A stretch of 41,881 nt of DNA from an uncultured Aquimonas sp. (GTDB lineage: Bacteria > Pseudomonadota > Gammaproteobacteria > Xanthomonadales > Xanthomonadaceae): contig CAMLOR010000004.1 in the NCBI GenBank assembly GCA_946481615.1, forward strand, positions 1 through 41,881, written 5' to 3'. Both the position numbers and the translations under genes were made by a program. Shown here one piece after another: positions 8,051 through 39,607 of the stretch. The notes beneath the pieces are model-generated. The model worked only from the letters and a program-made list of their open reading frames with translations. It did not search any database and was not told the origin of the DNA. The first letter of the stretch is position 1, and each line of letters starts with the position of its first letter.

Positions 8051-8081
8051 TCGCCATGCCCGTGCCGCAGGCCTTCGGTCC

Positions 8082-9245
8082 ATGAAGACGTTGTGCGTTT
8101 TCGGTACGCGTCCGGAGGCCATCAAGATGGCGCCGCTGGCGTTGGCGCTGGCGGCGGACGCGCGTTTCGAGGCCAGGGTCTGCGTCACGGGACAGCATCG
8201 CCAGATGCTGGACCAGGTGCTGGACTTGTTCGGCCTGGTACCGGATTTCGATCTGAGCGTGATGCAACCGGGGCAGGACCTGACCGACGTCACCTGCGCC
8301 GTGTTGCAGGGCATGCGCGCCGTACTGGACGAGTTCCGGCCGGACTGGGTCCTGGTGCACGGCGACACCGCGACCACCTTCGCCGCGAGCCTGGCGGCGT
8401 ATTACCGGCAGATTCCCGTGGCGCACGTCGAAGCGGGGCTGCGCACGGGCAACATGTATTCGCCCTGGCCCGAAGAGGCGAACCGCAAGCTCACCGGGGC
8501 GCTGGCGCAATTGCATTTCGCACCCACCGGCACCGCGCGCCGGAACCTGCTGCGCGAAGGGCTGGATCCGGCGGCCATCCACGTGACCGGCAATACGGTC
8601 ATCGATGCGCTGCTGCAGGTCGCGCACAAGCTCGAGGCCTCGCCGGCACTGCGCGAGCGCCATGAGCGGCAATTCCCCTTCCTCGCGCCGGATTCGCGCC
8701 TGCTCCTGGTCACGGGCCACCGGCGCGAAAGTTTCGGCGGCGGTTTCGAGCGCATCTGCCAGGCGCTCGCCGAGATCGCGCGCCGCTTCCCGGACCTGGC
8801 GATCGTCTATCCGGTGCATCTGAATCCGAACGTGCGCGAGCCCGTCAATCGTCTGCTCGCCGGCATCGACAACGTCCACTTGCTGGAACCGCTCGACTAC
8901 CTGCCCTTCGTCTACCTGATGAGCCGCGCCACGGTGATCCTCACCGACTCGGGCGGCATCCAGGAAGAGGCGCCGGCGCTGGGCAAGCCCGTGCTGGTGA
9001 TGCGCGACACCACCGAACGGCCCGAAGCCGTCGAGGCCGGCACCGTGCGCCTGGTCGGCACCGGGGTCGAAAGCATCGTCGGTGCAGTGCTGGAACTGCT
9101 CACCGACACCGGCGCCTACGAACGCATGAGCCGCGCGCACAACCCCTACGGCGACGGCCGCGCCTGCGAGCGCATCGTCCGCATCCTGGGCGACCTGTCG
9201 ACGCGTGCGTCGGACGGCGCAGCCCTGCGTGTGGCCGCGAGCTGA
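8082..9245 (+). CDS. wecB: UDP-N-acetylglucosamine 2-epimerase (non-hydrolysing)
   Basis: A 387-residue enzyme converting UDP-GlcNAc to UDP-ManNAc. The N-terminus has [13 protein letters not shown]. The catalytic residues known from E. coli WecB are all present at the same numbers: Asp95 (HGDTATT), Glu117 (HVEAGLRTG), Glu131 (PEEANRKLT) and His213 (TGHRRES). The C-terminal half has [17 protein letters not shown] and MRDTTERPE, standard for the family. Length is normal. The start ATG 8082 gives [12 protein letters not shown]; an upstream ATG at 8056 is in another frame and stops at once. wecC follows 39 bases later, so the two supply UDP-ManNAcA for the surface glycan. Confidence 0.95.
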
Positions 9246-10581: not shown

Positions 10582-11598
10582 GTGTTGAACGGAAAATCCA
10601 TCCTCGTCACCGGCGGCACCGGCTCTTTCGGCAAGGCGTTCGCCAGGACGATCCTGGCGCGGCATCCCGAGATCACCCGCCTGGTGATCTACAGCCGCGA
10701 CGAACTCAAGCAGTTCGAGATGGCGCAGCAGTTCGATCCGGCCACGCATCCCGGACTGCGCTACTTCATCGGCGACGTGCGCGACGCCGACCGCATCCGC
10801 CGGGCGATGGAAGGGATCGACATCGTCATCCACGCGGCCGCGCTCAAGCAGGTGCCGGCGGCCGAGTACAACCCGTTCGAATGCATCAAGACCAACATCC
10901 TCGGCGCGCAGAACGTGATCGAAGCGTGCTTCGACACCGGGGTGCGCAACGTGGTGGCGCTTTCCACCGACAAGGCCGCGGCGCCGATCAATCTGTACGG
11001 CGCCACGAAGCTTTGTTCCGACAAGCTCTTCACCGCCGCCAACAACATCAAGGGCCATCGCGACATCCGCTTCAGCGTGGTGCGTTACGGCAACGTGATG
11101 GGCAGCCGCGGCTCGGTGATCCCGTTCTTCCTGGACCGGCGCGCCAGCGGCGTGCTGCCGATCACCGATCCTGAAATGACGCGCTTCAACATCAGCCTGC
11201 AGGAAGGCGTGGACATGGTGTTGTGGGCGCTGGAGCACGCCGCGGGCGGCGAGATCTTCGTACCCAAGATCCCGAGCTATCGCATCACCGACGTGGCCCG
11301 CGCCATCGGCCCGGAATGCCAGCATCCCGTCGTCGGCATCCGTCCGGGCGAGAAGATCCACGAGGAAATGATCACCGCCAGCGACAGCTTCAACACCGTC
11401 GATCTCGGCCGCTACTTCGCCATCCTGCCTTCGGCCGGCCGCCACACGGTGGAGTCCTACTGCGTCGCGCACGGCGGCAAGCCGGTCGCGCCCGGCTATG
11501 CCTACGACAGCGGCAGCAACGGCGATTTCCTGAGCGTGGACCAGCTGCGCGAACTGATCCGCCAGCACGTCGACACCGGATTCGAGGTGGGCGGATGA
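10582..11598 (+). CDS. pseB: UDP-GlcNAc 4,6-dehydratase (C5-inverting), first step to pseudaminic acid
   Basis: A 338-residue extended SDR that makes UDP-2-acetamido-2,6-dideoxy-beta-L-arabino-hex-4-ulose from UDP-GlcNAc. It has the short single-domain form without membrane helices, as PseB/FlaA1 do. The Rossmann motif is TGGTGSFGKAF. Catalytic residues are Asp130, Lys131 and Tyr139 in STDKAAAPINLYGATK. IRPGEKIHEEM and SDSFNTVDLG in the C-terminal half are typical for PseB. The GTG start at 10582 is preceded by GGAGA at 10568-10572; the next codon, TTG, could also serve. Its stop codon overlaps the ATG of pseC. Confidence 0.93.
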   Translation: MLNGKSILVTGGTGSFGKAFARTILARHPEITRLVIYSRDELKQFEMAQQFDPATHPGLRYFIGDVRDADRIRRAMEGIDIVIHAAALKQVPAAEYNPFECIKTNILGAQNVIEACFDTGVRNVVALSTDKAAAPINLYGATKLCSDKLFTAANNIKGHRDIRFSVVRYGNVMGSRGSVIPFFLDRRASGVLPITDPEMTRFNISLQEGVDMVLWALEHAAGGEIFVPKIPSYRITDVARAIGPECQHPVVGIRPGEKIHEEMITASDSFNTVDLGRYFAILPSAGRHTVESYCVAHGGKPVAPGYAYDSGSNGDFLSVDQLRELIRQHVDTGFEVGG

Positions 11599-12752
11599 TT
11601 CCCTACGGCCGCCAGGACATCACCCAGGCCGACATCGATGCGGTGGCGGCGGTGCTGCGGTCGGACTTCCTCACGCAGGGGCCGATGGTGCCGCGCTTCG
11701 AAGCGGCGGTGGCCGCGCATTGCGGCGTCGCGCATGCGCTGGCGGTCAACAGCGCGACCTCGGCGCTGCACATCGCGTGCATGGCGCTGGACCTGGGGCC
11801 GGGCGACTGGCTCTGGACCAGCCCGATCACCTTCGTCGCTTCGGCCAACTGCGCGCTCTACTGCGGCGCGCGGGTGGATTTCGTCGACATCGACCCGCGC
11901 ACCTGGAACCTGTGCCCGCAAGCCCTGGAGCGCAAGCTGGTCCAGGCCGAGCGCGAAGGACGCCTGCCGAAGATCGTGGTGCCGGTGCATCTGGCGGGGC
12001 AGCCCTGCGACCTGGCAGCGATCCACGCGCTGGCGCAGAAGTATGGCTTCCGCGTGATCGAGGACGCCTCGCACGCGATCGGTGGCCGCTACCGCGACGA
12101 GCCGATCGGCAACTGCCGTTACAGCGACATCACCGTCTTCAGCTTCCATCCCGTGAAGATCATCACGTCGGCCGAAGGCGGCATGGCGCTCACCCGCAGC
12201 GACGAGCTGGCGCGGAAGATGGCCCTGTTCCGCAGCCACGGCATCACGCGCGACCCCGCGCAGATGACGCATGCGTCCGATGGCGGCTGGTATTACCAGC
12301 AGATCGCGCTCGGCTACAACTACCGCATGACCGAGCTGCAGGCCGCGCTCGGGTTGAGCCAGATGGAACGCCTGGCACCGTACGTGGCGCGCCGGCACGA
12401 ACTGGCGCACCGGTACGACGCGTTGCTGTCCCACCTGCCCGTGACCACGCCGTGGCAGCATCCGGATGGTTACTCGGGCCTGCACCTGTACGTGATCCGC
12501 CTGCAGCTCGATCGCATCGGCAAGACCCACCGCCAGGTGTTCGATGCGCTGCGCGAGCAGGGCATCGGCGTGAACCTGCACTACATCCCGGTCTACACCC
12601 AGCCGTACTTCCGTGCGCTCGGTTGCGCCCAGGACGCCTGTCCGCAGGCCGACGCCTACTATTCCGAGGCCATCAGCCTGCCGATGTACGCGACGCTGAG
12701 CGATGCGCAGCAGGACGAGGTCGTGGCCGCGCTGGAGCGCGCGCTGGCGTGA
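11595..12752 (+). CDS. pseC: UDP-4-amino-4,6-dideoxy-N-acetyl-beta-L-altrosamine transaminase
   Basis: A 385-residue DegT/DnrJ/EryC1-family aminotransferase, second step of the pseudaminic pathway, adding an amino group at C4 with glutamate as donor. PLP-binding Lys188 sits in FHPVKIITSAEGG, and FRSHGITRD follows it, both as in PseC. Other family marks are NSATSALHIACMALDLGPGD and VGVNLHYIPVYTQPYF (here GIGVNLHYIPVY). The start ATG 11595 overlaps the pseB stop by four bases (ATGA), and its own stop overlaps the next gene by GTGA. A second DegT-type aminotransferase at 25354-26538 belongs to a different subgroup. Confidence 0.93.
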   Translation: MIPYGRQDITQADIDAVAAVLRSDFLTQGPMVPRFEAAVAAHCGVAHALAVNSATSALHIACMALDLGPGDWLWTSPITFVASANCALYCGARVDFVDIDPRTWNLCPQALERKLVQAEREGRLPKIVVPVHLAGQPCDLAAIHALAQKYGFRVIEDASHAIGGRYRDEPIGNCRYSDITVFSFHPVKIITSAEGGMALTRSDELARKMALFRSHGITRDPAQMTHASDGGWYYQQIALGYNYRMTELQAALGLSQMERLAPYVARRHELAHRYDALLSHLPVTTPWQHPDGYSGLHLYVIRLQLDRIGKTHRQVFDALREQGIGVNLHYIPVYTQPYFRALGCAQDACPQADAYYSEAISLPMYATLSDAQQDEVVAALERALA

Positions 12753-14380
12753 ACCGGATCGCCGTCCTGCAGGCTCGCACCAGCTCCTCGCGCCTGCCCG
12801 CGAAGGTGCTGCTGCCCCTGGGCGGATTGCCTCTGGCGGTGCTGGCCGCGCGCCGCGCGATGAACACCGGGATTCCGCTGGTGGTGGCGACGTCCACCGA
12901 GCAGGATGACGATGGCCTGGCGGCGATGTTGCGAAACCACGGATTGCCGGTCCATCGCGGCAGCCTCACGGACACGCTCGAACGCGTGGTGGACGCGCTG
13001 GCCGGCCACGACGACGACACGACGGTGATCCGCCTGACCGCCGACAACGTGTTTCCCGACGGTCGCCTGCTCGATGAATTGCTGGAGGATTTCCAGTCGC
13101 GCGGGCTCGACTACCTTTGCTGCAACGGTGAACCCTCGGGCCTGCCCTACGGCATGAGTGCCGAGGTCACGCGCCTGCGCCATCTGCGCGAAGCAGCGGC
13201 GTCGGCCTCCGATCCGTTCGATCGCGAGCACGTGACGCCGTACATCATCCGCAAGTTCGGTGCGACCTGGTTCGGCCGGTACAGGACACTGCGCAAGGGT
13301 CACTACCGCTGCACGGTCGATACCTACGACGATTACGCCGGCATGCAGCGTGTCTTCCGCGACGAGCCCGAACCGGCGGCGGTCGCGGCGCTCGACCTGG
13401 TGGCGCGCCTCGATGTCGCGCCCTACCAGCCTTGCGCGCGTAGTCCGGTGCCGCAGCTGGTGGTCGGCGGTGCGCAGCTCGGCATGGATTACGGAATCGC
13501 GAACGTGCAGGGCCGGCCCGCACAGGCTTCCGCAACGGGACTGCTGAAGACGGCCATCGCCAACGGCGTGGCTTTCGTCGACACGGCGCACGCCTACGGT
13601 GCGAGCGAAGCCACGATCGGAGCCGCGCTGGGTGGTGGCTGGTCCGAGCGGATCCGCGTCGTCACCAAACTCGCACCGCTGGACGACTGCAAGCCGGAGG
13701 CGGCCGCGGCGGAACTTCGCGCACGCGTCGACGCCAGCGTCTACGAATCCTGCGTCCGGCTCGCGCGCCCGGCACTCGACGTGCTGTTGCTGCATCGTGC
13801 CGCGCATCTGGACGCGTGGGATGGCGCGGCGTGGAAGCGATTGATCGAACTGCGCGACATGGGTCGCATCAAGGCCCTCGGCGTTTCGGTGCAGACGCCG
13901 GCGGAGCTGGAAAACGCATTGCAGTTCGAGGACGTCCGTTTCGTGCAGATGCCGTTCAATCTGCTGGACTGGCGCTGGCGCGACGCAGTGGAGAAGCTCC
14001 AGGACGTCCGGCGCCGGCGCGACATCACGGTGCATGCGCGCAGCGCACTGCTGCAAGGATTGTTGCGCAGCCGGGACCGCTCGCATTGGCGGCGCGCTCA
14101 CGTGCCGGAGCCGGAACCGGTCTGGGCCTGGCTCGACGGCTGTGTCCGCGACTTCGGCCGGGACGGCGTGGTCGATCTGTGCCTGGGTTACGCGCGCGCC
14201 CAGGCCTGGATCGACGGCATCGTGATCGGGATGGACTCGCTCGACCAGTTGATCGAGAACGTCCGGAACTTCAACACGGCGGCGCTCGACGCGGAGCAGG
14301 TAGCGCAGATCGATTCGAGCCGGCCGCACTTGGGCGTGGATGCGCTGGACCCGGCGCGCTGGCAGAGGGCCGAAGCGTGA
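12749..14380 (+). CDS. Fusion: SpsF-type CMP-sugar cytidylyltransferase + aldo/keto reductase
   Basis: A single 543-residue frame with two domains. Residues 1 to about 230 are an SpsF/PseF-type nucleotidyltransferase: LQARTSSSRLPAKVLLPLGG at the N-terminus, IRLTADNVFPD, and the late CTVDTYDDYAGM. It stands where pseF would be and should activate the nonulosonate as its CMP form. Residues about 236-543 are an aldo/keto reductase with the whole catalytic tetrad: Asp278 and Tyr283 (VDTAHAYG), Lys307 (VVTKLAP) and His349 (LLLHRAAH). No stop or frameshift separates the parts. Canonical PseF has about 230 residues and no reductase. The substrate of the reductase is unknown; a UDP-sugar or nonulosonate intermediate is the likely target. 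Start GTG 12749 overlaps the pseC stop by four bases. Confidence 0.85.
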   Translation: MNRIAVLQARTSSSRLPAKVLLPLGGLPLAVLAARRAMNTGIPLVVATSTEQDDDGLAAMLRNHGLPVHRGSLTDTLERVVDALAGHDDDTTVIRLTADNVFPDGRLLDELLEDFQSRGLDYLCCNGEPSGLPYGMSAEVTRLRHLREAAASASDPFDREHVTPYIIRKFGATWFGRYRTLRKGHYRCTVDTYDDYAGMQRVFRDEPEPAAVAALDLVARLDVAPYQPCARSPVPQLVVGGAQLGMDYGIANVQGRPAQASATGLLKTAIANGVAFVDTAHAYGASEATIGAALGGGWSERIRVVTKLAPLDDCKPEAAAAELRARVDASVYESCVRLARPALDVLLLHRAAHLDAWDGAAWKRLIELRDMGRIKALGVSVQTPAELENALQFEDVRFVQMPFNLLDWRWRDAVEKLQDVRRRRDITVHARSALLQGLLRSRDRSHWRRAHVPEPEPVWAWLDGCVRDFGRDGVVDLCLGYARAQAWIDGIVIGMDSLDQLIENVRNFNTAALDAEQVAQIDSSRPHLGVDALDPARWQRAEA

Positions 14381-15174
14381 ACCGGACGATGGCGCGTTTT
14401 TCGTTGCAGGGACGGACGGCGCTGGTCACCGGCGCCGCAGGCCACCTCGGGCAGGCCATGGCCCTGGCGTTGGCGGAGGCGGGGGCACGCGTTCTGATCA
14501 ACGGCCGCTCGGCGTCCCGCGCCGAGTCATTGGTCGACGAGATTCGCGCCGCCGGCGGATTGGCGGACGCCCTGGTGTTCGACGTGACCGACGCCGCGCA
14601 GATCCGCGACGCAATCGCGCGACTCGACGCACCGCTGCACGTGATCGTCAACAACGCCTATTTCGGCGGCGCCGGCAATCTGGAAGGCGCGGCGCCGCAG
14701 TCGTATCGCGACAGCTACGAGGTTGGACTCGTCGCCGCGCACGCGCTCGTGCAGGCGGCGTTGCCGGCATTGCGCGAAGCGGTGCGCCGGGATGGCGATG
14801 CCTCGGTCGTCAACATCGCCTCGATGTACGGCATGGTGAGCCCGGATCCGCGCATCTATGCCTCGGCCGCGTCCGCCAACCCGCCCTTCTACGGCGCGGC
14901 CAAGGCGGCGCTGCTGCAATGGACGCGCTACGCCGCCTGCGAGCTGGGCCCGCAGGGCATCCGCGTCAACAGTGTTTCGCCCGGCCCATTCCCCGCGCCC
15001 GGCGTGCAACGCGAGAACCCGGATTTCGTGGCGCGCCTGACCGACAAGGTTCCCCTCGGACGCATCGGTGCCGCGGTGGAGATCGCCGGGCCGGTGGTGT
15101 TCCTGGCCGCGCCGGCGTCGAGCTTCGTGAACGGCGCCAACCTCGTCGTCGACGGGGGATGGACCGCGTGGTGA
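14377..15174 (+). CDS. Short-chain dehydrogenase/reductase inside the pse cassette
   Basis: A 265-residue classical SDR. The cofactor motif TGAAGHLGQAMA lies at about residues 17-28, and the NNAYFGGAG segment stands in place of the usual NNAG. Catalytic residues are Ser149 (NIASMYG), Tyr172 and Lys176 (YGAAK). The end ANLVVDGGWTAW is standard. It is tied to both neighbours by GTGA overlaps, so it is made along with the pseudaminic enzymes. SDRs are not among the six core Pse enzymes. Together with the adjacent AKR domain it could perform an oxidation/reduction pair that inverts a stereocentre of the sugar, but this is inference. GTG 14377 is the coupled start; ATG 14389 (MARFSLQG) is an alternative. 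Confidence 0.85.
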   Translation: MNRTMARFSLQGRTALVTGAAGHLGQAMALALAEAGARVLINGRSASRAESLVDEIRAAGGLADALVFDVTDAAQIRDAIARLDAPLHVIVNNAYFGGAGNLEGAAPQSYRDSYEVGLVAAHALVQAALPALREAVRRDGDASVVNIASMYGMVSPDPRIYASAASANPPFYGAAKAALLQWTRYAACELGPQGIRVNSVSPGPFPAPGVQRENPDFVARLTDKVPLGRIGAAVEIAGPVVFLAAPASSFVNGANLVVDGGWTAW

Positions 15175-16292
15175 ATGCGACGCCAGCGGCGGCGCGGATG
15201 CGCGTCGCCTTTCGGGTCGATGCCTCGATCGAGATCGGCACCGGCCATGTCATGCGCTGCCTGACGTTGGCCAATGCGCTGCGCGAACACGAAGCGCAAT
15301 GCGAGTTCGTCTGCCGCGCGCATCCCGGGCACCTCGCCGCGCGAATCGAAGCCGCCGGCCATGCGGTGCATCTGCTGCCGCTGCGATCGGGCGAGGAGGA
15401 CGGCGAAGAGCCGGCGGTCACCGCGCATGCGCACTGGCTGGGTTCCGGCTGGCGCCGGGATGCCGCGGAGACCGTCGCGGCGCTCGGCGCCTCGCGACGC
15501 GACTGGCTGGTCGTGGATCACTATGCGCTGGACGCGCGCTGGGAATCGGAAGCCGGTCGCGTTGCGGTGCGTACGATGGCCATCGACGATCTCGCCGATC
15601 GCGTGCATCGGGTCGACCTGCTGCTCGACCAGAATCTCGGGCGCGCCGCGTCCGATTACGACTCGCTTCTACCGGCGTCGGCACGCTGCCTGGCAGGGCC
15701 GGATTACGCGCTGCTGCGGCCCGATTTCGCCCGTCTGCGCGACGACAGTCTGGCGCGGCGCGAGGCTGCCGCGCTCGGACATGTCCTGGTGTCGCTCGGC
15801 GGCGTGGATCGCGACAATCTCACGGGCCGCGTGCTGGATGCGCTTGCGACCGTGGAGCTGCCGCGCGATGCCCGGGTGACGGTCGTCATGGGAAAGCAGT
15901 CGCCCGGACTCGAAGCGGTTCGCGCGCAGGCTTCGCGGATGCCGTTCGCCTGCGCCGTGCGCGTGGACATCGACGACATGGCGCAGGTAGTGGCGGATGC
16001 CGACCTGGCCATCGGTGCGGCTGGAAGTTCGTCCTGGGAACGATGCGTGCTGGGCCTGCCGACCATCATGCTGGTGCTGGCCGAAAACCAGCGCGGCATC
16101 GCTGCCGAACTGGAGAAGGCCGGTGCCTGCCTGGTCGTCGCCAGCGACGGGCGGCTGTCGCGGGAGCTGGCGGACGCCATGCGGCGCCTCGACGATGCCG
16201 CGGAGCGGGCGAAGTTTTCGCGCGCGGCGGCCGAAGTGCTGGATGGCGGCGGCACCGCGCGCGTGGCTGCGGCGATGGGAGTGTGCCGGTGA
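15171..16292 (+). CDS. pseG: UDP-2,4-diacetamido-2,4,6-trideoxy-beta-L-altropyranose hydrolase
   Basis: A 373-residue GT-B-like hydrolase that removes UDP from the diacetamido altrose intermediate. The N-terminus has FRVDASIEIGTGHVMRCL, in which His26 corresponds to the essential histidine of PseG. Further family marks are VVDHYALD, DLADR, LLDQNL, VSLGGVDRDN, and the late GAAGSSSWERCVLGLPT with NQ nearby. Its presence fixes the pathway as pseudaminic-like, since legionaminic synthesis uses a hydrolysing 2-epimerase instead. GTG 15171 overlaps the SDR stop by four bases; the codon at 15198 (ATG, M10) would start directly before the conserved core. Confidence 0.92.
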   Translation: MNATPAAARMRVAFRVDASIEIGTGHVMRCLTLANALREHEAQCEFVCRAHPGHLAARIEAAGHAVHLLPLRSGEEDGEEPAVTAHAHWLGSGWRRDAAETVAALGASRRDWLVVDHYALDARWESEAGRVAVRTMAIDDLADRVHRVDLLLDQNLGRAASDYDSLLPASARCLAGPDYALLRPDFARLRDDSLARREAAALGHVLVSLGGVDRDNLTGRVLDALATVELPRDARVTVVMGKQSPGLEAVRAQASRMPFACAVRVDIDDMAQVVADADLAIGAAGSSSWERCVLGLPTIMLVLAENQRGIAAELEKAGACLVVASDGRLSRELADAMRRLDDAAERAKFSRAAAEVLDGGGTARVAAAMGVCR

Positions 16293-19077: not shown

Positions 19078-20315
19078 AGCTCCGCTCCGAGTATCGCAAC
19101 TTCAGGAAGTACGCGAAGAACTACAACTTCCATTTTTACCGGAGAAATCTGGATACCAGGCTCCCGCTGCCGGTCTGCGTGGCGATCGGACTCGCCCGGC
19201 TGGCCTATTTCACGCTGTTCGAGTCGCTGGCGATGGCGAGCGCGCGGGCACCAGGCAATCACCCTCTGCTGGTGATGGTGGGCTCCGAAAACAATCGCAA
19301 GGCTTACGGCCTGATCCAGAAGCATCTTCCGCCGCACGACGTCGCGACGTTCCATACCTACGCCGGAGCGGGAAGACGCATCAACCTCCTGCATGCTTAC
19401 TTGAGCGGCCTGGCCAGTCTGCGGCTGGTGCCGGCGCTGGTGTGGCGACAGGCGAGGTATGCACGATTGGTGTGCAAGAACCTCGACGTCTTCGTCCTCA
19501 CCAACGGAACCCTGTCCGGACGCGAGCGCCGGTTCGTCGCCGGTTACGCCGGTGTCGTGTCGTTCTCCGAATATTCGGCGTACGCCAATCTGATCCTGGC
19601 GAACCGGGACCGGGACGCCAGACTCGTGTATTTCCCGCATGCCCGGCTGCCGCGGAAGCATCATCGCTTCCTCGCCTCCGATGTGGTCATCGACGCATCG
19701 AGCACGGATGGCTTCGACTCGGAGGGGATCAGGTTGCATCCGGTCGACGGCCTGTACGAGGCGATCAGCCGCGGAGACGCGTCGTCCGAGCCGGTTTCCG
19801 CCGATGCATCCGGTGGAAAACGCGTCCTGCTCTGCACCAACACGCTCGATTCGCCCTGGGCCATCGTGCGCCTTGTCCGGAAGCTCCGCCGGAGGCTCGC
19901 AGGCGAAGGAAAGGTGCTGGTGCGCATGCATCCTGCGGAAAAGTTCCGATCCGCCAAGACGGCGATCTATACGCGATTGGGCGGCGCGCAGATCGATCGC
20001 TCCGCCACCTTCGCCGAGGCGATGTGCGGAACCGGTTTCGTCTATGGCGGCTTCACCGGCGCGCTGATCGAAGCGCTGCGCGGCGGTGCGCGTGTTTACT
20101 CCAGCATTCCCTCGCGCCGGCTCGTGGAGTACTTCGACGTCGGCGAACTTTCCGCCGTCGGCGACGAGCAGGCGTTGCTCGACGATATCGTCCGATTGCC
20201 GATGCCGGTCGTGAAAGCGCCGGATCCCACGTGCGGACCCCGGGCGGATCCGTCATCCATGCATGACGAGTTGCAACGTATCTTCGACGGAATTTTCCGT
20301 ACCAGCGAGGCTTGA
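19074..20315 (+). CDS. Candidate GT-B glycosyltransferase, possibly a nonulosonate transferase
   Basis: A 413-residue protein not assigned with certainty. The second half looks like the donor domain of a GT-B fold: KRVLLCTNTL opens it, VLVRMHPAEKF carries an HP motif (His286, Pro287), and FVYGGFTGALIEALRGG (Thr328) is a possible S/T-type motif. HP and S/T motifs are shared by several inverting bacterial sialyltransferase families and by capsule polysialyl transferases. The N-terminus is basic with a hydrophobic segment at about residues 32-52 that may touch the membrane. Being placed two genes after pseI, it is the best candidate for adding the pseudaminic-like sugar. The start ATG 19074 overlaps the previous stop. 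Arginine and glycine codon choice (AGG, AGA, GGA) is less GC-biased than in flanking genes. Confidence 0.5.
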   Translation: MKLRSEYRNFRKYAKNYNFHFYRRNLDTRLPLPVCVAIGLARLAYFTLFESLAMASARAPGNHPLLVMVGSENNRKAYGLIQKHLPPHDVATFHTYAGAGRRINLLHAYLSGLASLRLVPALVWRQARYARLVCKNLDVFVLTNGTLSGRERRFVAGYAGVVSFSEYSAYANLILANRDRDARLVYFPHARLPRKHHRFLASDVVIDASSTDGFDSEGIRLHPVDGLYEAISRGDASSEPVSADASGGKRVLLCTNTLDSPWAIVRLVRKLRRRLAGEGKVLVRMHPAEKFRSAKTAIYTRLGGAQIDRSATFAEAMCGTGFVYGGFTGALIEALRGGARVYSSIPSRRLVEYFDVGELSAVGDEQALLDDIVRLPMPVVKAPDPTCGPRADPSSMHDELQRIFDGIFRTSEA

Positions 20316-20320
20316 CGCAG

Positions 20321-21040
20321 GTGAATGCACGACTGAAGGACTGGCTTGCGGACACGCATCATCGCGTGTTCGGTTGCCGCGGCGCTTACGCCGATCTGGC
20401 CCGGACGACCGCTCGGGTGGAGACCGCATCGTTGAGCTCAGCGACTTGCCATCGCCTGATCCAGGCGCTGGATGCTGCGTTGGCCGATCCGGACGCTGTC
20501 GGCACCGTGCATTGGAGCGATCCCCAGGGCGCCGATCGCCGCGTCTTCGGTTTCGAGCATTTCTTCCCCGCGGCCGTGACCGATCTGGGCATCGGGGACG
20601 AGCTCGCGCGCATCTCCGGCTACCTGGGTTCCGCCGTCCGCAGCTGGACCCTGCTCGCATCGCGCATCGCGGCGGTGCCGGGGAACCTCGGATCCGGCGG
20701 CGGCTGGCATCGCGACTCCGCGTTCCGCCATCAGGTCAAGGTGATCTGGTATCTGAACGATGTGTCCCTGGAGAACGGACCCTTCAGCTATGTGGCGGGC
20801 ACGCATTACCGGCGCCGGACGTCGGCGCCGGGCGACTCCGCCTATGAGACCCGTCTGGAGGTCAACCCCGAAGAAGCGACCAGCGTCACCGCTCCGGCGG
20901 GGACCAAGCTGGTCTGCGATACCAAGTGTGTCCACGGGGGCCGGGTGGTCGAAAGCGGTGTGAGATATGCCATCACCCTCTATACCTTCGAATCGCAGGC
21001 TCAGATGGATCTTCTGCTGCGCAAGTTGAAGAAGGGCTAG
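20321..21040 (+). CDS. Phytanoyl-CoA dioxygenase (PhyH)-type Fe(II)/2-oxoglutarate oxygenase
   Basis: A 239-residue protein with the facial triad of Fe(II)/2-oxoglutarate dioxygenases: His130 and Asp132 in GGWHRDSAF, His205 in CVHGGR, and Arg215 suited to bind 2-oxoglutarate. VIWYLNDVSLENGPFSYVAGTHY is the typical PhyH core (the family keeps the products of NGPL/F...PGSH). Such enzymes hydroxylate small or lipid-linked substrates; here the substrate may be a sugar or an acyl group on the glycan. GTG 20321 is chosen because GAGG (20307-20310) lies ten bases before it; a TTG at 20312 overlaps the previous stop but has no room for a ribosome site. Confidence 0.8.
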   Translation: MNARLKDWLADTHHRVFGCRGAYADLARTTARVETASLSSATCHRLIQALDAALADPDAVGTVHWSDPQGADRRVFGFEHFFPAAVTDLGIGDELARISGYLGSAVRSWTLLASRIAAVPGNLGSGGGWHRDSAFRHQVKVIWYLNDVSLENGPFSYVAGTHYRRRTSAPGDSAYETRLEVNPEEATSVTAPAGTKLVCDTKCVHGGRVVESGVRYAITLYTFESQAQMDLLLRKLKKG

Positions 21041-28437: not shown

Positions 28438-29043
28438 GTGAACAAGCCGGAGCTCCATCGCCAGGTCGCGCAACTGCACGCTGCCAATCTCGACCGGGGC
28501 TTCCTGTCGCTGCTGGGCACGGACTTCCTTGCGTCGATGTACCGGGCGATAGACGAAGCCGGCGAGAGCGTGCTGCTGGTCGAAGAGCGCGATGGCCGCA
28601 TCGTCGGCTTCATTGCCGGCAGCCTGGGCATGGGGCCGATCTACCGGCGCATGCTGCGCCGGCCGTTCTCGCTGGCCTGGTCGTTGCTGCCGTCGTTGGT
28701 GCGTCCCCGACGGCTGCGCAAGATATTCGACATCCTGCGCTACGGCGGCGGCGAGAAATTCGATCCCGGCCTGCCCGCGGCCGAACTGCTGAGCATCGCG
28801 GTCGACCGGCAGTTTCGCGGCAAGGGCATCGCCGAAACCTTGTATCGGCGTCTGGTCGAGCATTTCGACCAGGCCGGCCTGGCTGCCTTCAGGATCGTCG
28901 TCGGTGCGGCACTGAGCCCTGCGCACCGGTTCTATGCACGGATGGGCGCGGTCCCGGTTTCGGAAATCGAACTGCACGCCGATCAGCGTTCGGTGGTCTA
29001 CATCCACGCGATCGGAGTGCGCGACGGTGGCCGAACCGCTTAG
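28438..29043 (+). CDS. GNAT family N-acetyltransferase
   Basis: A 201-residue GNAT protein. ESVLLVEERDGRIVGFIAGS forms the early strands, and LLSIAVDRQFRGKGIAETLYRRL is the acetyl-CoA binding strand and loop (R-G-K-G-I-A). The AHRFYARMGAVP segment is the typical C-terminal part. Between about residues 60 and 105 there is a basic, partly hydrophobic insertion (RRPFSLAWSLLPSLVRPRRLR) that may touch the membrane. It could acetylate the 4-amino group made by the neighbouring aminotransferase, in the role that PglD fills elsewhere, but PglD has another fold. GTG start at 28438, six bases after the sugar transferase. It overlaps the next gene by 17 bases. Confidence 0.82.
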   Translation: MNKPELHRQVAQLHAANLDRGFLSLLGTDFLASMYRAIDEAGESVLLVEERDGRIVGFIAGSLGMGPIYRRMLRRPFSLAWSLLPSLVRPRRLRKIFDILRYGGGEKFDPGLPAAELLSIAVDRQFRGKGIAETLYRRLVEHFDQAGLAAFRIVVGAALSPAHRFYARMGAVPVSEIELHADQRSVVYIHAIGVRDGGRTA

Positions 29044-31036
29044 CCCCGTGACCGCGGAACCGACCCGCTGGCGCGACGATATCGAAGGATTCCGTGCCTG
29101 GGCCATCGTTCCGGTGCTGCTGTATCACTTCGATCCGGCCTGGCTGCCCGGCGGGTTCCTCGGCGTCGACGTCTTCTTCGTCATCTCGGGCTATCTGATG
29201 GCCGCGATGACGCTGGGACGCAGGAGCGGATCGGCCGTCGCCGCGTTGCGCGTCTTCCTGCTGAGGCGGACCTTGCGCATCCTGCCGGCGTTGGCCGTCG
29301 TGCTGGGAGTGAGCGCGGTGGCATTCGCTTTCGTCCTGTTGCCGCGCATGCATGCCCCCTACTTCGTCACGGCAGCGAGCGCATTGGTCGGCGCGAGCAA
29401 CCTGCAGCTCGCCGGGCAGAAGGCGGACTACTTCGCCGCCGCTGCCAACGACAATCCGTTCCTGCACACCTGGTCGATTTCCGTCGAGCTGCAGTTCTAC
29501 CTGGTCTTCGGCCTGGCCCTGTTCGCACTGATGGCGGCGTTGCGCAGCGACCGCGCAAGACGCCTCGGGCTCGCCTGCGTCGCGACAGCGATCCTGCTGA
29601 TCGGCTTTTACTACCATCCGGCAACCTCGCCGTCGGCCTACTTCGATCTTTTCGCGCGACTGTGGGAATTCATGCTGGGCACGCTGGCGTTCCTGGCGGA
29701 ACCGTTGCTCGTCACCATGGGAAAGCGCTGGCGCGGCGTGGCGCTGTGGGGCAGCCTCGCAGTGTTGTGGGCGAGCATGGCCGGCCCCGGCATCTTTCCA
29801 GGTGCGGCGGCGGCGAACGTCGCCGCGGTGCTCGCTGCGGCGGTCGTACTGCTGGTCGGTGCGGCGGCACCGGCATGGGCTGCTTCGGCGTTGACCGTGC
29901 GTCCGGTTCGCTGGCTCGGCCGTGTTTCCTATTCGGCCTATCTGGTGCATTTCCCGGTGTTGAAGTGGGTCGAGCTGAATTTCGACACGGGTCCCGCGAA
30001 TCTGCCCGCACTGGGCCTGTATCTCGCGACCACGCTGCTTCTTGCCTGGGCCTGCTTCCGCTGGGTGGAAGAGGCCTACCGGATTCGCGGCGATCGAAGC
30101 ACCCAGAGCTACCGCTGGAAATCGATGCTTGCGTTGTGGGCGGGAAGCCTGGTCTCGATCGTCGCCGTGGCGCAGCTTTCACCTCGCATCAGCGTGCTTT
30201 CCGCGTGGGACGACCGGCTCGACTACGCCCGGGTCGAGCCCGTGCTCGAGGGCGAACAGGGCGAAGTCATGGTGGTGGGCGACTCGCACGCGCAGCAGCT
30301 GTTTCCTGCCTTCCGCGCGGTATCGGCCGAACATGGCGTGCGTTTCGTCAACAAAACCGGCTCGGCCTGTTTGTTCACGGACGAGTATTCCTATGTCCGC
30401 AACGGCCTGCTCGAAGCGCGTTGTCTGGATCCCATGCGGTCCTATATCGATGCGTTGAAGCGGGAGGGCGGAGGTCGCCGGGTGCTCTTCGTGGGCATGC
30501 GGTCTCTCGCCTATCTTTCGCCACGCATGCTCTCGACCTACGACAGCCCCGTCGACGGGCTGATCGGAAAAGACGGATTCATTCCGGTGGCCGATCACCG
30601 GGCAATGGACGCCTACGGGCGCTCGCTCGAACGGATCGCCACCGAACTGCAGGCGCACCGCGTGCGGATGCTGTTTCTGGCGCCGTTACCCGAACTCCGC
30701 GTTCCGACCTACGCCTGCCTGATGAGGCCGGACAAGCGCGAATGCGGCGTGGCGAAGACCGATGCGCTGGCGCATCGGGCGCGTTTCATGGAGATCCTCG
30801 CGCGGATCGAACGGCAGGTCCCCGCATTCGAAGTCTGGGATCCGTTCGACCTCGTCTGTCCGGAAGCGACCTGCAGCAATCTGCGCGCGAACCGGGCGGT
30901 GTTCCGCGACGATGACCATCTGTCAAAGGAGATGGCGGCCGCGCTGTCCGACGATCTGTGGCACGCGTTGCACCGGACGCTGGAGGCGGCGAGGGAGGCC
31001 GCCGCCCCGGCTCCGAAGGCGGGTTCCCCGGAATGA
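29027..31036 (+). CDS. OafA-type acyltransferase with SGNH domain (first of a tandem pair)
   Basis: A 669-residue membrane protein that probably moves acetyl groups to the outer-surface glycan. Residues about 15-360 form the ten-helix acyltransferase-3 domain with His34 in LLYHFDPAWLPGGFLGVDVFFVISG and SISVELQFYLVF. The C-terminal part is a periplasmic SGNH domain with Ser420 in VVGDSHAQQL and Asp628/His631 in DDDHLS. GTG 29027 has GGAG at 29014-29017 and is preferred over GTG 29048. The stop overlaps the second acyltransferase by ATGA. Target sugar and acyl group cannot be told. Confidence 0.88.
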   Translation: MAEPLSPVTAEPTRWRDDIEGFRAWAIVPVLLYHFDPAWLPGGFLGVDVFFVISGYLMAAMTLGRRSGSAVAALRVFLLRRTLRILPALAVVLGVSAVAFAFVLLPRMHAPYFVTAASALVGASNLQLAGQKADYFAAAANDNPFLHTWSISVELQFYLVFGLALFALMAALRSDRARRLGLACVATAILLIGFYYHPATSPSAYFDLFARLWEFMLGTLAFLAEPLLVTMGKRWRGVALWGSLAVLWASMAGPGIFPGAAAANVAAVLAAAVVLLVGAAAPAWAASALTVRPVRWLGRVSYSAYLVHFPVLKWVELNFDTGPANLPALGLYLATTLLLAWACFRWVEEAYRIRGDRSTQSYRWKSMLALWAGSLVSIVAVAQLSPRISVLSAWDDRLDYARVEPVLEGEQGEVMVVGDSHAQQLFPAFRAVSAEHGVRFVNKTGSACLFTDEYSYVRNGLLEARCLDPMRSYIDALKREGGGRRVLFVGMRSLAYLSPRMLSTYDSPVDGLIGKDGFIPVADHRAMDAYGRSLERIATELQAHRVRMLFLAPLPELRVPTYACLMRPDKRECGVAKTDALAHRARFMEILARIERQVPAFEVWDPFDLVCPEATCSNLRANRAVFRDDDHLSKEMAAALSDDLWHALHRTLEAAREAAAPAPKAGSPE

Positions 31037-32991
31037 GCATCGACGCACGAAGATTGGACGTCGACGCGCTGCGGGCGATCGCCGTGCTGTGCGTGATCAC
31101 TTTCCACCTGCACGAAAGCTGGCTTCCCGGCGGATTCGTGGGTGTCGACGTGTTCTTCGTGATCTCCGGCTTCCTCATCACGGGCGGAATCCTGGAACGC
31201 TCGGCGCAGGGGCGATTCTCCCTGCCGGATTTCTATCTGAGACGCTTCCGACGACTTTTCCCGGCGGCGCTGGCCACGGTCGCATGCACCCTTGCTGCCG
31301 GGGCAGCGTGGTTTTCGCCCGAGCACCTGCAAAGTCTCGCCGCCAGCTCGCTGAGCGCGGTGTTCAGCGTGTCGAACCTCTATTTCTGGCGTCATCAGGG
31401 CTACTTCGATACCAGCGTCGAGCACAGTCCGCTGTTGCACACGTGGTCGCTCGGTGTGGAGGAACAGTTCTACCTGGTCTGGCCGTGGCTGGTGATGGCC
31501 TGCCTGGGTGCAGGAGGCGGTTCCCGCGCATTGGGACGCAGCCTGCTCGTCGTGCTGGCAGCTTCGGTACTGGCCGCGGAATGGCTGCTCGAGTCGGACG
31601 CCGCCGCTGCCTACTACCTCATGCCTTTCCGGGCCGGCGAATTCGCTCTGGGCGCATTGTGTTGCGCGGCGCTGCGTCCGGCGGCACTGGACCGCTTCAC
31701 GCGTGGTCCACAGGCGCGATTGCTTCATGTCTCGGGGTTCGCGGCCATCGTGTGCAGTGCGTCATGGCTCGACCGCGACAGCCGCTTCCCCGGCCTCCAT
31801 TCCCTGCTGCCCGCAGCGGGTGCCGCCGCGATGCTGCTGGGCGGGCAGAGCGGCGGCCTGAGAGCGATCGGCGCCAATGCGGTCCTGGCGTGGATCGGGC
31901 GACTTTCCTATTCCCTGTATCTGGTGCATTGGCCGTTGCTGGTGTTCTGGCGCTACCACGCCGCAGAACCCGCGAATGGACTCACGCTCGCGCTCCTGGG
32001 CGCCGCGATGATGCTGGCTGCGGTCGCGCTGCACTACGGCATCGAAAAGCCCTTCCGTCAGTCGACGATCGAACGGGACCGCATGACGCCTCGGGTGGCA
32101 TTGACGATCTCGCTGGCGGGGGCGCTGGCGGTCTGCCTGACCGCTGCGCATGCCTATCGATCGCATGGGTGGCCAGGTCGCGTGCCTTCCGCGATCGCAC
32201 GGGCGATCGAGAACGCGCGCGAAGCCCGCGCCCTGGCGGTGGCGGCGACCGCCACCACCTGCTCGCTCGATGCGCAGGCGCAGGCGCCTCGCTGGTGGCG
32301 GGAATGCCTGGCCGAGCGTTTCGGCAAGCGTCCGGGATACCTGCTGATCGGCGACAGTCATGGCCGCGATACGCGCGAGACGCTTCGCCTGGCGTATCCG
32401 CAGGCCAGCATCCAGATGTTGTATCAGTCGTTCTGCCTGCCCTTCGAATACGAGCGGGCCGGGCGTTCGGCCTGCTTCGTCGGCATGCAGGATTTCCTGC
32501 GCGAGGAACTGCCCCGGCTGCCCTTGCGGGGCGTCCTGCTTTCGAGTCACTTCGGCACGCAGCAGGATTCACGCATCGCAGACACGGTCGCCGCGATCCG
32601 TGCCCACGATCTGCCGGTGGTGGTGTTCGGGCCCACGATGACCTTCACGCAACCCGTGCCCGATCTGGCGCTGCAACTGGGGCGCGTCGCGGGTCTGGAC
32701 CGGCGCGTGAACGATCTGCAAAGCACGCAGTTGTATGAGCGGGACGCCATGCTGGCGCAGCTCGCCCGTGCGTCCGGGGTCGGCTACGTGGGCAAACTCG
32801 ATGTCATCTGCCCCGGACACCGCTGCCTGGTCGTGCACGAGGGTGCGCAGGCCCTGCTCAGTTTCGACGCGGCGCACTGGACGCCTGCGACGCACGCTTA
32901 CGTGGCGACGCGCTGGCGCAGGCGTTGGCCGGAACTGGGCGACATGTTCGAATCGTCCGCGGGGGTTGCCGGATCGGGTGCGGCCCGCTGA
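31033..32991 (+). CDS. OafA-type acyltransferase with SGNH domain (second of a tandem pair)
   Basis: A 652-residue protein with the same two-domain plan as its neighbour. The acyltransferase-3 part begins LDVDALRAIAVL and has His25 in ITFHLHESWLPGGFVG, then SLGVEEQFYLVWPW. The SGNH part has Ser442 in LIGDSHGRDT and the late pair Asp612/His615 in FDAAHWTPA. It is closer to classic OafA/YrhL proteins than the first copy. Two such enzymes in tandem could acylate different positions. The start ATG 31033 overlaps the upstream stop. The last 94 bases overlap the opposing membrane-protein gene, beginning just after the codon for the catalytic histidine. Confidence 0.9.
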   Translation: MSIDARRLDVDALRAIAVLCVITFHLHESWLPGGFVGVDVFFVISGFLITGGILERSAQGRFSLPDFYLRRFRRLFPAALATVACTLAAGAAWFSPEHLQSLAASSLSAVFSVSNLYFWRHQGYFDTSVEHSPLLHTWSLGVEEQFYLVWPWLVMACLGAGGGSRALGRSLLVVLAASVLAAEWLLESDAAAAYYLMPFRAGEFALGALCCAALRPAALDRFTRGPQARLLHVSGFAAIVCSASWLDRDSRFPGLHSLLPAAGAAAMLLGGQSGGLRAIGANAVLAWIGRLSYSLYLVHWPLLVFWRYHAAEPANGLTLALLGAAMMLAAVALHYGIEKPFRQSTIERDRMTPRVALTISLAGALAVCLTAAHAYRSHGWPGRVPSAIARAIENAREARALAVAATATTCSLDAQAQAPRWWRECLAERFGKRPGYLLIGDSHGRDTRETLRLAYPQASIQMLYQSFCLPFEYERAGRSACFVGMQDFLREELPRLPLRGVLLSSHFGTQQDSRIADTVAAIRAHDLPVVVFGPTMTFTQPVPDLALQLGRVAGLDRRVNDLQSTQLYERDAMLAQLARASGVGYVGKLDVICPGHRCLVVHEGAQALLSFDAAHWTPATHAYVATRWRRRWPELGDMFESSAGVAGSGAAR

Positions 32992-37952: not shown

Positions 37953-38588
37953 GTGCCCTGGACCCGCGACGAAATGGCGCAGCGCGCCGCACAGGAACTC
38001 ACCGACGGCGCCTACGTCAACCTAGGCATCGGCCTGCCGACGCTGGTGGCGAACTTCATCCCGCCGGGGATGGACGTGTGGCTGCAGAGCGAGAACGGCC
38101 TGCTCGGCATCGGCCCGTTCCCGACCGAAAGCGAAGTCGATCCCGACCTCATCAACGCCGGCAAGCAGACGGTGACCGCGCGTCCGGGCGCCAGCTATTT
38201 CGGCAGCCACGATTCCTTCGCGATGATCCGCGGCGGCCACATCGACCTCGCCATCCTCGGCGCGATGCAGGTGACGGGCGAGGGCGATCTCGCCAACTGG
38301 ATGGTGCCGGGCAAGATGGTCAAGGGCATGGGCGGTGCGATGGATCTGGTCGCCGGCGTGAAGCGCGTGGTGGTGCTGATGGAACACACCGCCAAGAACG
38401 GCGAACACAAGATCGTGCCTGAGTGCACGCTGCCGCTCACCGGCGTGGGCGTGGTGAATCGCATCATCACCGATCTGGCCGTGATGGACGTGACGCCCGG
38501 CGGCCTGGTGCTGGTGGAAACCGCGCCCGGCGTGGGCGAGGACGAACTGCGCCAGAAGACCGGCGTCGAGTTCAAGCGCGCGGCCTGA
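37953..38588 (+). CDS. scoB: 3-oxoacid CoA-transferase subunit B
   Basis: A 211-residue beta subunit that carries the catalytic glutamate, Glu47, in [12 protein letters not shown], the glutamate that forms the CoA thioester. [17 protein letters not shown] at the N-terminus and [24 protein letters not shown] and [12 protein letters not shown] further on are standard. Length is normal for separate subunits. The start is GTG 37953; no strong ribosome site is seen. It pairs with scoA in one operon, and an acyltransferase gene begins eight bases after its stop. Confidence 0.94.
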
Positions 38589-38596
38589 ACGCGCGC

Positions 38597-39607
38597 GTGG
38601 CCGCCGGCGGCGGCGAAAAGCTCGAGGGCCTGCAGGCGCTGCGCGCGCTGGCGGCGCTGGCCGTCGTCGTGTTCCATGCCGGCCGTTACGTGGCGGGCGG
38701 CCTGCCCGAGGCGGCCTGGCGCTGGGGCGAGTTCGGCGTCGACGTGTTCTTCGTCGTCAGCGGTTTCGTGATGATGGTGGCCGTGCCGCGCGGTGCCGGC
38801 TGGCGCGAGTTCGCGCGGCGGCGCGCGATCCGCATCCTGCCCATGTACTGGCTCGCCACGCTGTCGATGGCGGTGCTGGTGCTGGCCGCGCCGCAGCTGT
38901 TCGTCGCCGCGCTCGTCACGCCGGCGCATTTCGTCCTGAGCCTGCTGCTGGTGCCGCATTACAGCCCGGCGGCGCCGGGCGAGGTGGTGCCGCTGCTGGT
39001 GCCCGGTTGGACGCTGAGTTACGAGTTGTATTTCTACCTCGTGTTCGCGCTGTTCCTGCGCGCGGGCGACGGCCTGCGCGTGGCCGGCGCGACGGCCGTG
39101 CTGCTGGCGCTGTTCCTGCTCGGGCGCGTCCTGCCGCCGTCGGCCGGCAGCGAGTTCCTCGGCCAGCCGCTGGTGTTCGAATTCGCCTTCGGACTGGCGG
39201 CCGGGGCCGCGTGGCGGCGCGGCTGGCGCTGTCCGCCGCGGCTCGCGTGGCCGCTCGCCGCGCTGGCGGCCGCGCTGCTCGTGGCGACGGCGACGCCGGC
39301 GTGGCGCGTGCCCACGGCGGGTGTGGCGGGGTTGGCAATGGTGTGGGCGTTGACCTCCGTCGGCATGCGCGGCCGCATCGGAGCCATGCTGGTCGCGCTG
39401 GGCGATGCCTCGTACTCGCTATACCTCTTGCATCCCTTCGTCGTGGGCGCGGTCTGGGTCGCATGGCAACGCATCGGCATGACGGGCACGCCGGGGGCGC
39501 TCGGGTTCACCGCCGTGTGTCTCGTGTCGGCCGCCGCGACGGGCTGGCTCGCGTGGCGCCTGGTGGAGGCTCCCGTCACGAGGTCGCTGCGCCGCATCCG
39601 CACCTGA
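38597..39607 (+). CDS. OafA-type acyltransferase without SGNH domain
   Basis: A 336-residue acyltransferase-3 membrane protein with about ten helices. The catalytic histidine is His27 in AVVVFHAGRYVAGG, followed by FGVDVFFVVSGFVMM, RRAIRILPMYWLATL and WTLSYELYFYLVFALFL, and near the end LGDASYSLYLLHPFVVG. It has no periplasmic SGNH domain, unlike the two acyltransferases at 29027-32991. It may acetylate a surface glycan or membrane-linked sugar. The GTG at 38597 is the first plausible start after scoB; the long open frame before it lies inside scoB. Confidence 0.87.
   Translation: MAAGGGEKLEGLQALRALAALAVVVFHAGRYVAGGLPEAAWRWGEFGVDVFFVVSGFVMMVAVPRGAGWREFARRRAIRILPMYWLATLSMAVLVLAAPQLFVAALVTPAHFVLSLLLVPHYSPAAPGEVVPLLVPGWTLSYELYFYLVFALFLRAGDGLRVAGATAVLLALFLLGRVLPPSAGSEFLGQPLVFEFAFGLAAGAAWRRGWRCPPRLAWPLAALAAALLVATATPAWRVPTAGVAGLAMVWALTSVGMRGRIGAMLVALGDASYSLYLLHPFVVGAVWVAWQRIGMTGTPGALGFTAVCLVSAAATGWLAWRLVEAPVTRSLRRIRT

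Follow-up and report, generated by a model that had tools for sequence, protein, structure and literature searches.

Which enzyme activates the sugar made by a pseudaminic acid (Pse) operon that carries no pseF, and does that enzyme also alter the sugar? The question is raised by a 41,881-nucleotide stretch of DNA from an uncultured Aquimonas sp. (contig CAMLOR010000004.1; the whole 41.9-kb stretch is called the window below), in which a gene joining an SpsF-like cytidylyltransferase (CT) to an aldo/keto reductase (AKR) stands at the pseF place. Our analysis indicates that this fusion is most probably an EpaA-type enzyme acting with an EpaB-type short-chain dehydrogenase (SDR), which would invert C8 of Pse and then give the cytidine monophosphate (CMP)-activated form of 8-epipseudaminic acid (8ePse), CMP-8ePse, in place of CMP-Pse. 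The fusion is real, and the system is largely already known, because its anatomy and its most likely function are both in print (PMC12053666, PMC7371886); what is new here is that the SDR partner is recognised, that the pair is identified with EpaA-EpaB, and that PseF replacement is backed by counts in genomes.

The fusion gene and its dehydrogenase partner

Four features carry the argument (window positions, forward strand):

12749..14380 (+): EpaA-type fusion of an SpsF-like CT and an AKR, at the pseF place; one frame, Pfam domains, invariant active sites
12749..13423 (+): CT part, residues 1-225; CTP_transf_3 at 4-172; eight positions identical in all 47 rows
13424..14377 (+): AKR part, residues 226-543; Aldo_ket_red at 237-524; D278, Y283, K307 and H349
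14377..15174 (+): EpaB-type SDR, partner of the fusion, 265 residues with the assumed start; adh_short_C2, E 8e-45

The fusion is a single open frame of 543 codons plus a stop; it starts with GTG, shares a 4-nt overlap with the stop of pseC (11595-12752), and its own stop overlaps the assumed start of the SDR gene that follows. Pfam assigned CTP_transf_3 (E 6e-17) to residues 4-172 and Aldo_ket_red (PF00248, E 3e-32) to residues 237-524; the cut at 225/226 was chosen in this analysis and used to compare the alignments of the two parts. Sequence relatives in the PDB were the cytidylyltransferase 6oew for the first half (E 2.5e-20) and AKRs such as 1pz1 for the second (E 7e-8). A genome scan for the fusion yielded 57 loci, 46 of which (L001-L046) matched over almost the full protein length with at least 35% identity; L047-L057 were set aside before counting, being contig-end fragments, CT only or (L049) halves encoded by two genes in reverse order. 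Asp278, Tyr283, Lys307 and His349, which we take to be the AKR catalytic tetrad (Asp-Tyr-Lys-His), were invariant in all 35 rows of a protein-database alignment that included the window, and in all 47 rows formed by the 46 loci and the window. The CT residues Gln8, Arg10, Arg15, Lys19, Thr97, Asp99, Asp104 and Asp191 were likewise invariant in the 47 rows. At least 1554 proteins matched the fusion at E <= 0.001 when the best 7993 candidates were scored, and an assembly or frame artefact was rejected because 118 of 120 homologues among the matches listed have both Pfam domains (P0006 and P0008 were annotated with the AKR only).

The preliminary description of this DNA had reported one frame holding both enzymes, an intact tetrad, and a location at the pseF place with no other CMP-nonulosonate synthetase in the window, and all of these points held. 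The operon reads pseB-pseC-fusion-SDR-pseG-pseH-pseI, and a search of the 41.9-kb window (frames of at least 60 residues against a CT query and two PseF queries, E <= 10) returned no second cytidylyltransferase. The fusion itself gave no match to the PseF profile TIGR03584 (curated cut-off 205.7 bits) at E <= 1e-5, and 18 bits with a PseF query. With KdsB (TIGR00466) it scored 26 bits, below the curated cut-off of 155.2; a KdsB or general AKR role was set aside, given the operon context and NCBIfam matches far below the cut-offs.

Classical SDRs carry the motifs TGxxGxxG and YxxxK. In the downstream partner, Thr18, Gly19, Gly22 and Gly25 (TGxxGxxG) as well as Tyr172 and Lys176 were kept in 44 of 44 rows of the SDR alignment, which includes the window and leaves out L004 (no SDR), L011 and L035. 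In 44 of the 46 loci no more than 17 nt separate the SDR start from the fusion end (from the AKR end in two split cases), and the two genes often overlap; this count includes L011, whose SDR is cut by the contig end. Pairwise divergences were correlated between CT and AKR (r 0.88, 47 rows) and between fusion and SDR (r 0.90, 44 rows), values in which shared descent is uncontrolled. The active sites of fusion and SDR are intact, and the pairing of the two is conserved.

The pair closely resembles a published one. Sharar et al. (2025) located epaA-epaB in Acinetobacter baumannii prophages; EpaA has 542 residues (CTP_transf_3 at 5-192, Aldo_ket_red at 239-525), EpaB is an adh_short_C2 SDR of 262 residues, 41.5% identical to AciE, and the two convert Pse to 8ePse by inversion of C8 (PMC12053666). 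When epaA-epaB was added to the Pse-making KL58 strain, nuclear magnetic resonance showed ~85% 8ePse and a minor share of Pse (PMC12053666). The window pair shares with EpaA-EpaB the domain pair and its order, near-equal lengths and boundaries (543 vs 542 residues; 4-172/237-524 vs 5-192/239-525), an adjacent codirectional adh_short_C2 SDR (265 vs 262 residues) and the same substrate pathway, Pse. Whereas epaA-epaB lies in a prophage, apart from the psaC-bearing K locus, the window pair stands within the pse operon, with no pseF in the window.

A second precedent is the nab cluster of Vibrio sp. B9-25K2, where pseC is followed by an SpsF-like CT/AKR protein and a dehydrogenase, as in the window, with no NeuA homologue; its authors proposed in 2020 that the CT/AKR protein may replace NeuA (PMC7371886). 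The PseAc2 of this strain, known from liquid chromatography-mass spectrometry and tandem mass spectrometry (MS/MS) only, showed deviating fragmentation, which points to an epimer or to N-acetyl groups at shifted positions (PMC7371886). The Vibrio cluster differs from the window in having a bifunctional PseH and a methylmalonyl-CoA-epimerase-like gene.

More distant parallels also exist. The fusion shares with PseF a predicted CMP activation of a Pse-type sugar and the same operon place, but has a reductase attached and, as reported above, does not match TIGR03584. Bacillus subtilis SpsF, a putative cytidylyltransferase, resembles the CT part in its placement at the CMP-nonulosonate step; it is assigned the last step of a CMP-legionaminic acid pathway, a different one, and complementation of an spsF deletion failed (PMC7439481). 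The label SpsF-like follows the names in database sources and in PMC7371886, not an alignment to the B. subtilis protein. AciE, a 265-residue adh_short_C2 SDR tied to 8-epiacinetaminic acid (8eAci) in A. baumannii, and ElaA of the same species differ in belonging to legionaminic-type pathways, and the available text of their reports mentions no CT-AKR fusion (PMC5595891, PMC9676051). Within the open-licence PMC articles searched, we found no paper linking EpaA-EpaB with the NeuA-less Vibrio cluster or counting PseF against the fusion.

PseF and the fusion across genomes

We then counted PseF and the fusion in genomes. Counts within a genus are more trustworthy than the comparison across samples, and kinship is ignored in both. 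In Pseudomonas, PseI was found in 80 of 199 genomes. Of these, 74 lack the fusion, and 73 of them have PseF above its curated cut-off (the miss is G662); of the 6 that carry the fusion, 1 has PseF (G010; Fisher p 1.5e-6). Among 175 Acinetobacter genomes, 10 had PseI, with PseF above the cut-off in 8 of 8 without the fusion vs 0 of 2 with it; both fusions adjoin PseI (L012 by gene order, G479 by coordinates), and a ninth PseF genome (G462) was without PseI. Across samples, PseI-positive genomes had PseF in 19 of 35 cases without the fusion vs 1 of 38 with it, a loose comparison in which the Fisher test is applied to differently drawn samples.

A PseI-like gene, in some cases with a weak score, was present in 44 of the 46 loci (the exceptions, L011 and L043, are cut by contig ends), and at the genome level PseI was above its cut-off in 38 of 44 fusion genomes, a set without the genomes of L028 and L041. 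PseF exceeded its cut-off in 1 of the 44 genomes reached through fusion loci, leaving 43 without it, among them those of Halomonas salinarum and Pseudomonas panipatensis. Seven more had PseF matches of 112-157 bits, below the cut-off: in G008, G015, G025 and G035 the match shares its contig with a NeuB-like gene short of the PseI cut-off, and the other three are G002, G007 and G039. The G002 match lies in a Crenothrix metagenome-assembled genome (MAG), between the SDR and pseG, in a frame (L002:7258-7938) with a PIG-L deacetylase-like start and the C-terminal part of PseF at its end (profile positions 78-219 of 222, 123 bits, with no match to the first 77). This frame is a probable pseF leftover beside its replacement, or possibly a MAG assembly error.

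These results support the view that the fusion stands in for PseF, most clearly within genera, and because of the genome counts the replacement proposed in the preliminary description is more than an impression.

Proposed reaction and competing explanations

From family membership, PseB, PseC, PseH, PseG and PseI would make 5,7-di-N-acetylpseudaminic acid (Pse5Ac7Ac). One of the two oxidoreductases could then turn the C8 hydroxyl into a ketone and the other reduce it from the opposite face, giving 8ePse; the net conversion of Pse to 8ePse by such a pair is published for A. baumannii EpaA-EpaB (PMC12053666). The SpsF-like domain would next couple 8ePse to CMP, yielding CMP-8ePse instead of CMP-Pse, so that epimerisation would precede activation. 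We infer that CMP-8ePse can form without PseF because the distributions of PseF and the fusion are complementary. Loss of PseF could also prevent activation of unepimerised Pse. KL58 retains psaC, listed as a cytidylyltransferase (PMC11494974), and the 15% Pse left over in the A. baumannii work can be interpreted as what competition by the host PsaC for Pse would be expected to leave, a competition that a PseF-less operon would avoid. The preliminary description had suggested that activation is accompanied by a neighbouring redox change; this is supported, in that EpaA-EpaB inverts C8 of Pse (PMC12053666), with the correction that the fusion is very probably not enough for the redox step and depends on the adjoining SDR as well, which that description lacked and which completes the unit here.

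Several observations weigh against epimerisation by the pair followed by activation by the fusion. The A. baumannii experiment does not show a working EpaA CT domain, because the locus keeps PsaC, and kinship to EpaA (SBS22546.1) was judged by published lengths, domains and gene order, not by sequence. L004 (21.6 kb) carries a fusion but lacks an SDR, and the SDR of L035 is 2.9 kb away from the fusion. Pseudomonas uvaldensis (G010) has a full PseF (G010:C1:552615-553277, L058) about 105 kb from its fusion operon, and G039 gave a strong partial PseF match (profile positions 1-93, 156 bits). In a class-wide sample of 369 genomes, the 37 with PseI comprised 19 with PseF, 2 with the fusion and 16 with neither, so PseF is also missing in 16 of the 35 PseI genomes without the fusion; because these 16 have neither, other PseF replacements exist and the fusion is one of several. 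Lastly, the scheme drawn by the authors of the 8eAci paper activates first, with the CMP-activated legionaminic acid CMP-Leg5Ac7Ac as the substrate (PMC5595891).

That scheme points to another order for the window, in which CMP-Pse is formed first, by the CT domain, and C8 is epimerised only afterwards, when SDR and AKR act on this nucleotide sugar, an order that a single polypeptide would suit by letting CMP-Pse pass from the CT to the AKR site. We regard this as a genuine possibility, if a doubtful one, since the A. baumannii modules for 8-epilegionaminic acid and 8eAci consist of lgaABCDEF plus ela or aci genes with, in the available text, no lgaG (PMC9676051), LgaG being named as a cytidylyltransferase (PMC12053666). 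That the ordinary activator is dropped whenever an epimer is made would be explained more easily if the epimer itself were activated.

It is also conceivable, though more doubtful, that the AKR is the ketone former of a wider branch, its 8-ketone mostly being re-reduced by the SDR to 8ePse and elsewhere aminated by a class III aminotransferase. An AKR and a CT lie side by side in 8 of the 16 class-sample PseI genomes without PseF or fusion (G087, G155, G164, G206, G259, G265, G285 and G411), and in five of these eight the CT belongs to a frame of 676-685 residues; the one checked with Pfam, L077 from G285, combines CT with Aminotran_3 (L077:2370-3821). L049 has AKR, CT and Aminotran_3 as three frames (L049:9968-12959), L004 a fusion and a CT-Aminotran_3 protein (L004:12307-14406) with no SDR, and L035 all of fusion, SDR and CT-Aminotran_3 (L035:11639-13792). 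In Aeromonas, islands are described in which pseF is surrounded by genes for an 'alpha/keto reductase' and a class III aminotransferase (PMC7874193), which fits the wider branch. On the other side, AKRs mostly reduce, and we know of no 8-amino nonulosonate product. The separate AKRs may also act on another carbon, because they scored only 73-160 bits with the A1 model (102 bits for the L049 AKR). In its fullest form, which we consider rather unlikely, the AKR would be the entry of a modular 'C8-keto' branch leading through the SDR to an 8-epimer or through the aminotransferase to an 8-amino sugar; a CT joined to either the AKR or the aminotransferase would replace PseF such that only the altered sugar is activated, and phage epaAB would be its mobile version. 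As an observation in its own right, pse clusters in which CT is joined to a class III aminotransferase (in L049, placed next to one) and an AKR lies close by may mark an amino-sugar branch.

The fusion reductase acting at another position or on an earlier intermediate, to give a different Pse isomer, is quite unlikely. Besides the anomeric centre, Pse5Ac7Ac has free hydroxyls at C4 and C8 only, and in A. baumannii it is C8 that a fusion of this architecture inverts with this kind of partner (PMC12053666); on the other side, the window cluster is known from genes alone and the Vibrio product is solved to MS/MS only (PMC7371886). Finally, a pseF elsewhere in the genome supplying CMP-Pse while the fusion CT domain lies idle is very improbable, given that the CT residues never vary over the 47 rows and that 43 of 44 fusion genomes have no PseF above the cut-off, even though the negative for pseF covers the 41.9-kb window only and P. 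uvaldensis has a second-site PseF.

The 8ePse reports found in the available literature concern A. baumannii capsules only, where it is made by prophage genes. If the operons described here make 8ePse, many environmental Pseudomonadota, along with scattered members of other phyla, would have it as a common product, and the lack of PseF in a pse cluster could be read from a genome as the mark of an altered nonulosonate. Whether epimerisation or activation comes first would be testable in organisms without a confusing second cytidylyltransferase.

Operon surroundings, spread and history

The remaining genes of the operon and its upstream neighbours, which run in the order wecB, wecC, pseB, pseC, fusion, SDR, pseG, pseH, pseI, are as follows:

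8073..9245 (+): wecB-type UDP-N-acetylglucosamine (UDP-GlcNAc) 2-epimerase, upstream neighbour; TIGR00236, 526 bits
9279..10547 (+): wecC-type UDP-N-acetylmannosamine dehydrogenase, upstream neighbour; NF008286, 746 bits
10582..11598 (+): pseB, UDP-GlcNAc 4,6-dehydratase (inverting); TIGR03589, 516 bits, cut-off 408
11595..12752 (+): pseC, C4 aminotransferase; TIGR03588, 563 bits, cut-off 424
15171..16292 (+): pseG, UDP-sugar hydrolase; TIGR03590, 306 bits
16289..16825 (+): pseH, N-acetyltransferase; TIGR03585, 118 bits
16809..17867 (+): pseI, pseudaminic acid synthase; TIGR03586, 508 bits

All five Pse genes scored above their curated NCBIfam cut-offs, placing the Pse pathway in the same operon as the fusion. 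A surface polysaccharide is the likely destination of the nonulosonate, because a weak Wzz match just below its cut-off, sugar transferases and acyltransferases are encoded nearby.

In a tree of the 46 loci and the window (quick method with a midpoint root, the true root not being inferred), the window fusion grouped with that of Halomonas salinarum (56% identity, support 97). The tree spans Pseudomonadota, Verrucomicrobiota, Bacillota, Chlorobiota, Lentisphaerota, Elusimicrobiota, Gemmatimonadota and a Methanospirillum; many members are MAGs, in which contig misassignment is possible. Split versions of the two domains, which the preliminary description had proposed to look for, were found in L043 (4170-5787) and L044 (10001-11621), where CT and AKR are separate overlapping genes with the SDR still next. 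Both nest among fusions (the pair has support 100, and the four-row clade that it forms with L027 and L029 has 95), and because of this nesting a split after fusion appears more likely than the reverse. Free CT and AKR genes as the ancestral state are disfavoured by the same placement.

Phage relatives were sought in several collections. A tblastn search of phages with the window fusion gave no match, and viral contigs searched with the window fusion, two alignments and an Acinetobacter homologue held no fusion relative; in phages, that homologue gave three partial matches of 24-27% identity. The two fusions in the 175 Acinetobacter genomes both stand beside PseI, and the prophage EpaA itself was not among them. 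The SDR alignment retrieved nine viral contigs with SDRs 31-37% identical, seven of them with NeuB-like genes and none with a CT-AKR fusion. Should these operons make 8ePse, this would point to chromosomal operons as the source of the phage pair, or as its partners in exchange, in a comparison that does not include the phage genes.

Some minor observations accompany these results. The IMG/VR contigs L082-L088 carry SDRs 34-37% identical to the EpaB-type SDR together with NeuB-like genes, whose best PseI-query scores are 99-129 bits. Full-length fusion relatives occur on plasmids of Marinovum algicola (CP010865.1, 45% identity) and Maritalea myrionectae (NZ_CP021332.1, 42% identity), and in Pseudosulfitobacter (NZ_CP022416.1) a standalone AKR match overlaps an annotated aldo/keto reductase adjoining pseC. 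The PseF of P. uvaldensis lies near a glycosyltransferase gene and a gene resembling ketoacyl-acyl carrier protein synthase III, and a single PseI was found in that genome. Within the polysaccharide region of the window, a PhyH-type dioxygenase gene lies at 20312-21040, and three acyltransferase-3 genes, two with SGNH domains, follow downstream (28934-31036, 30958-32991 and 38423-39607); heavy O-acylation of the polysaccharide is possible.

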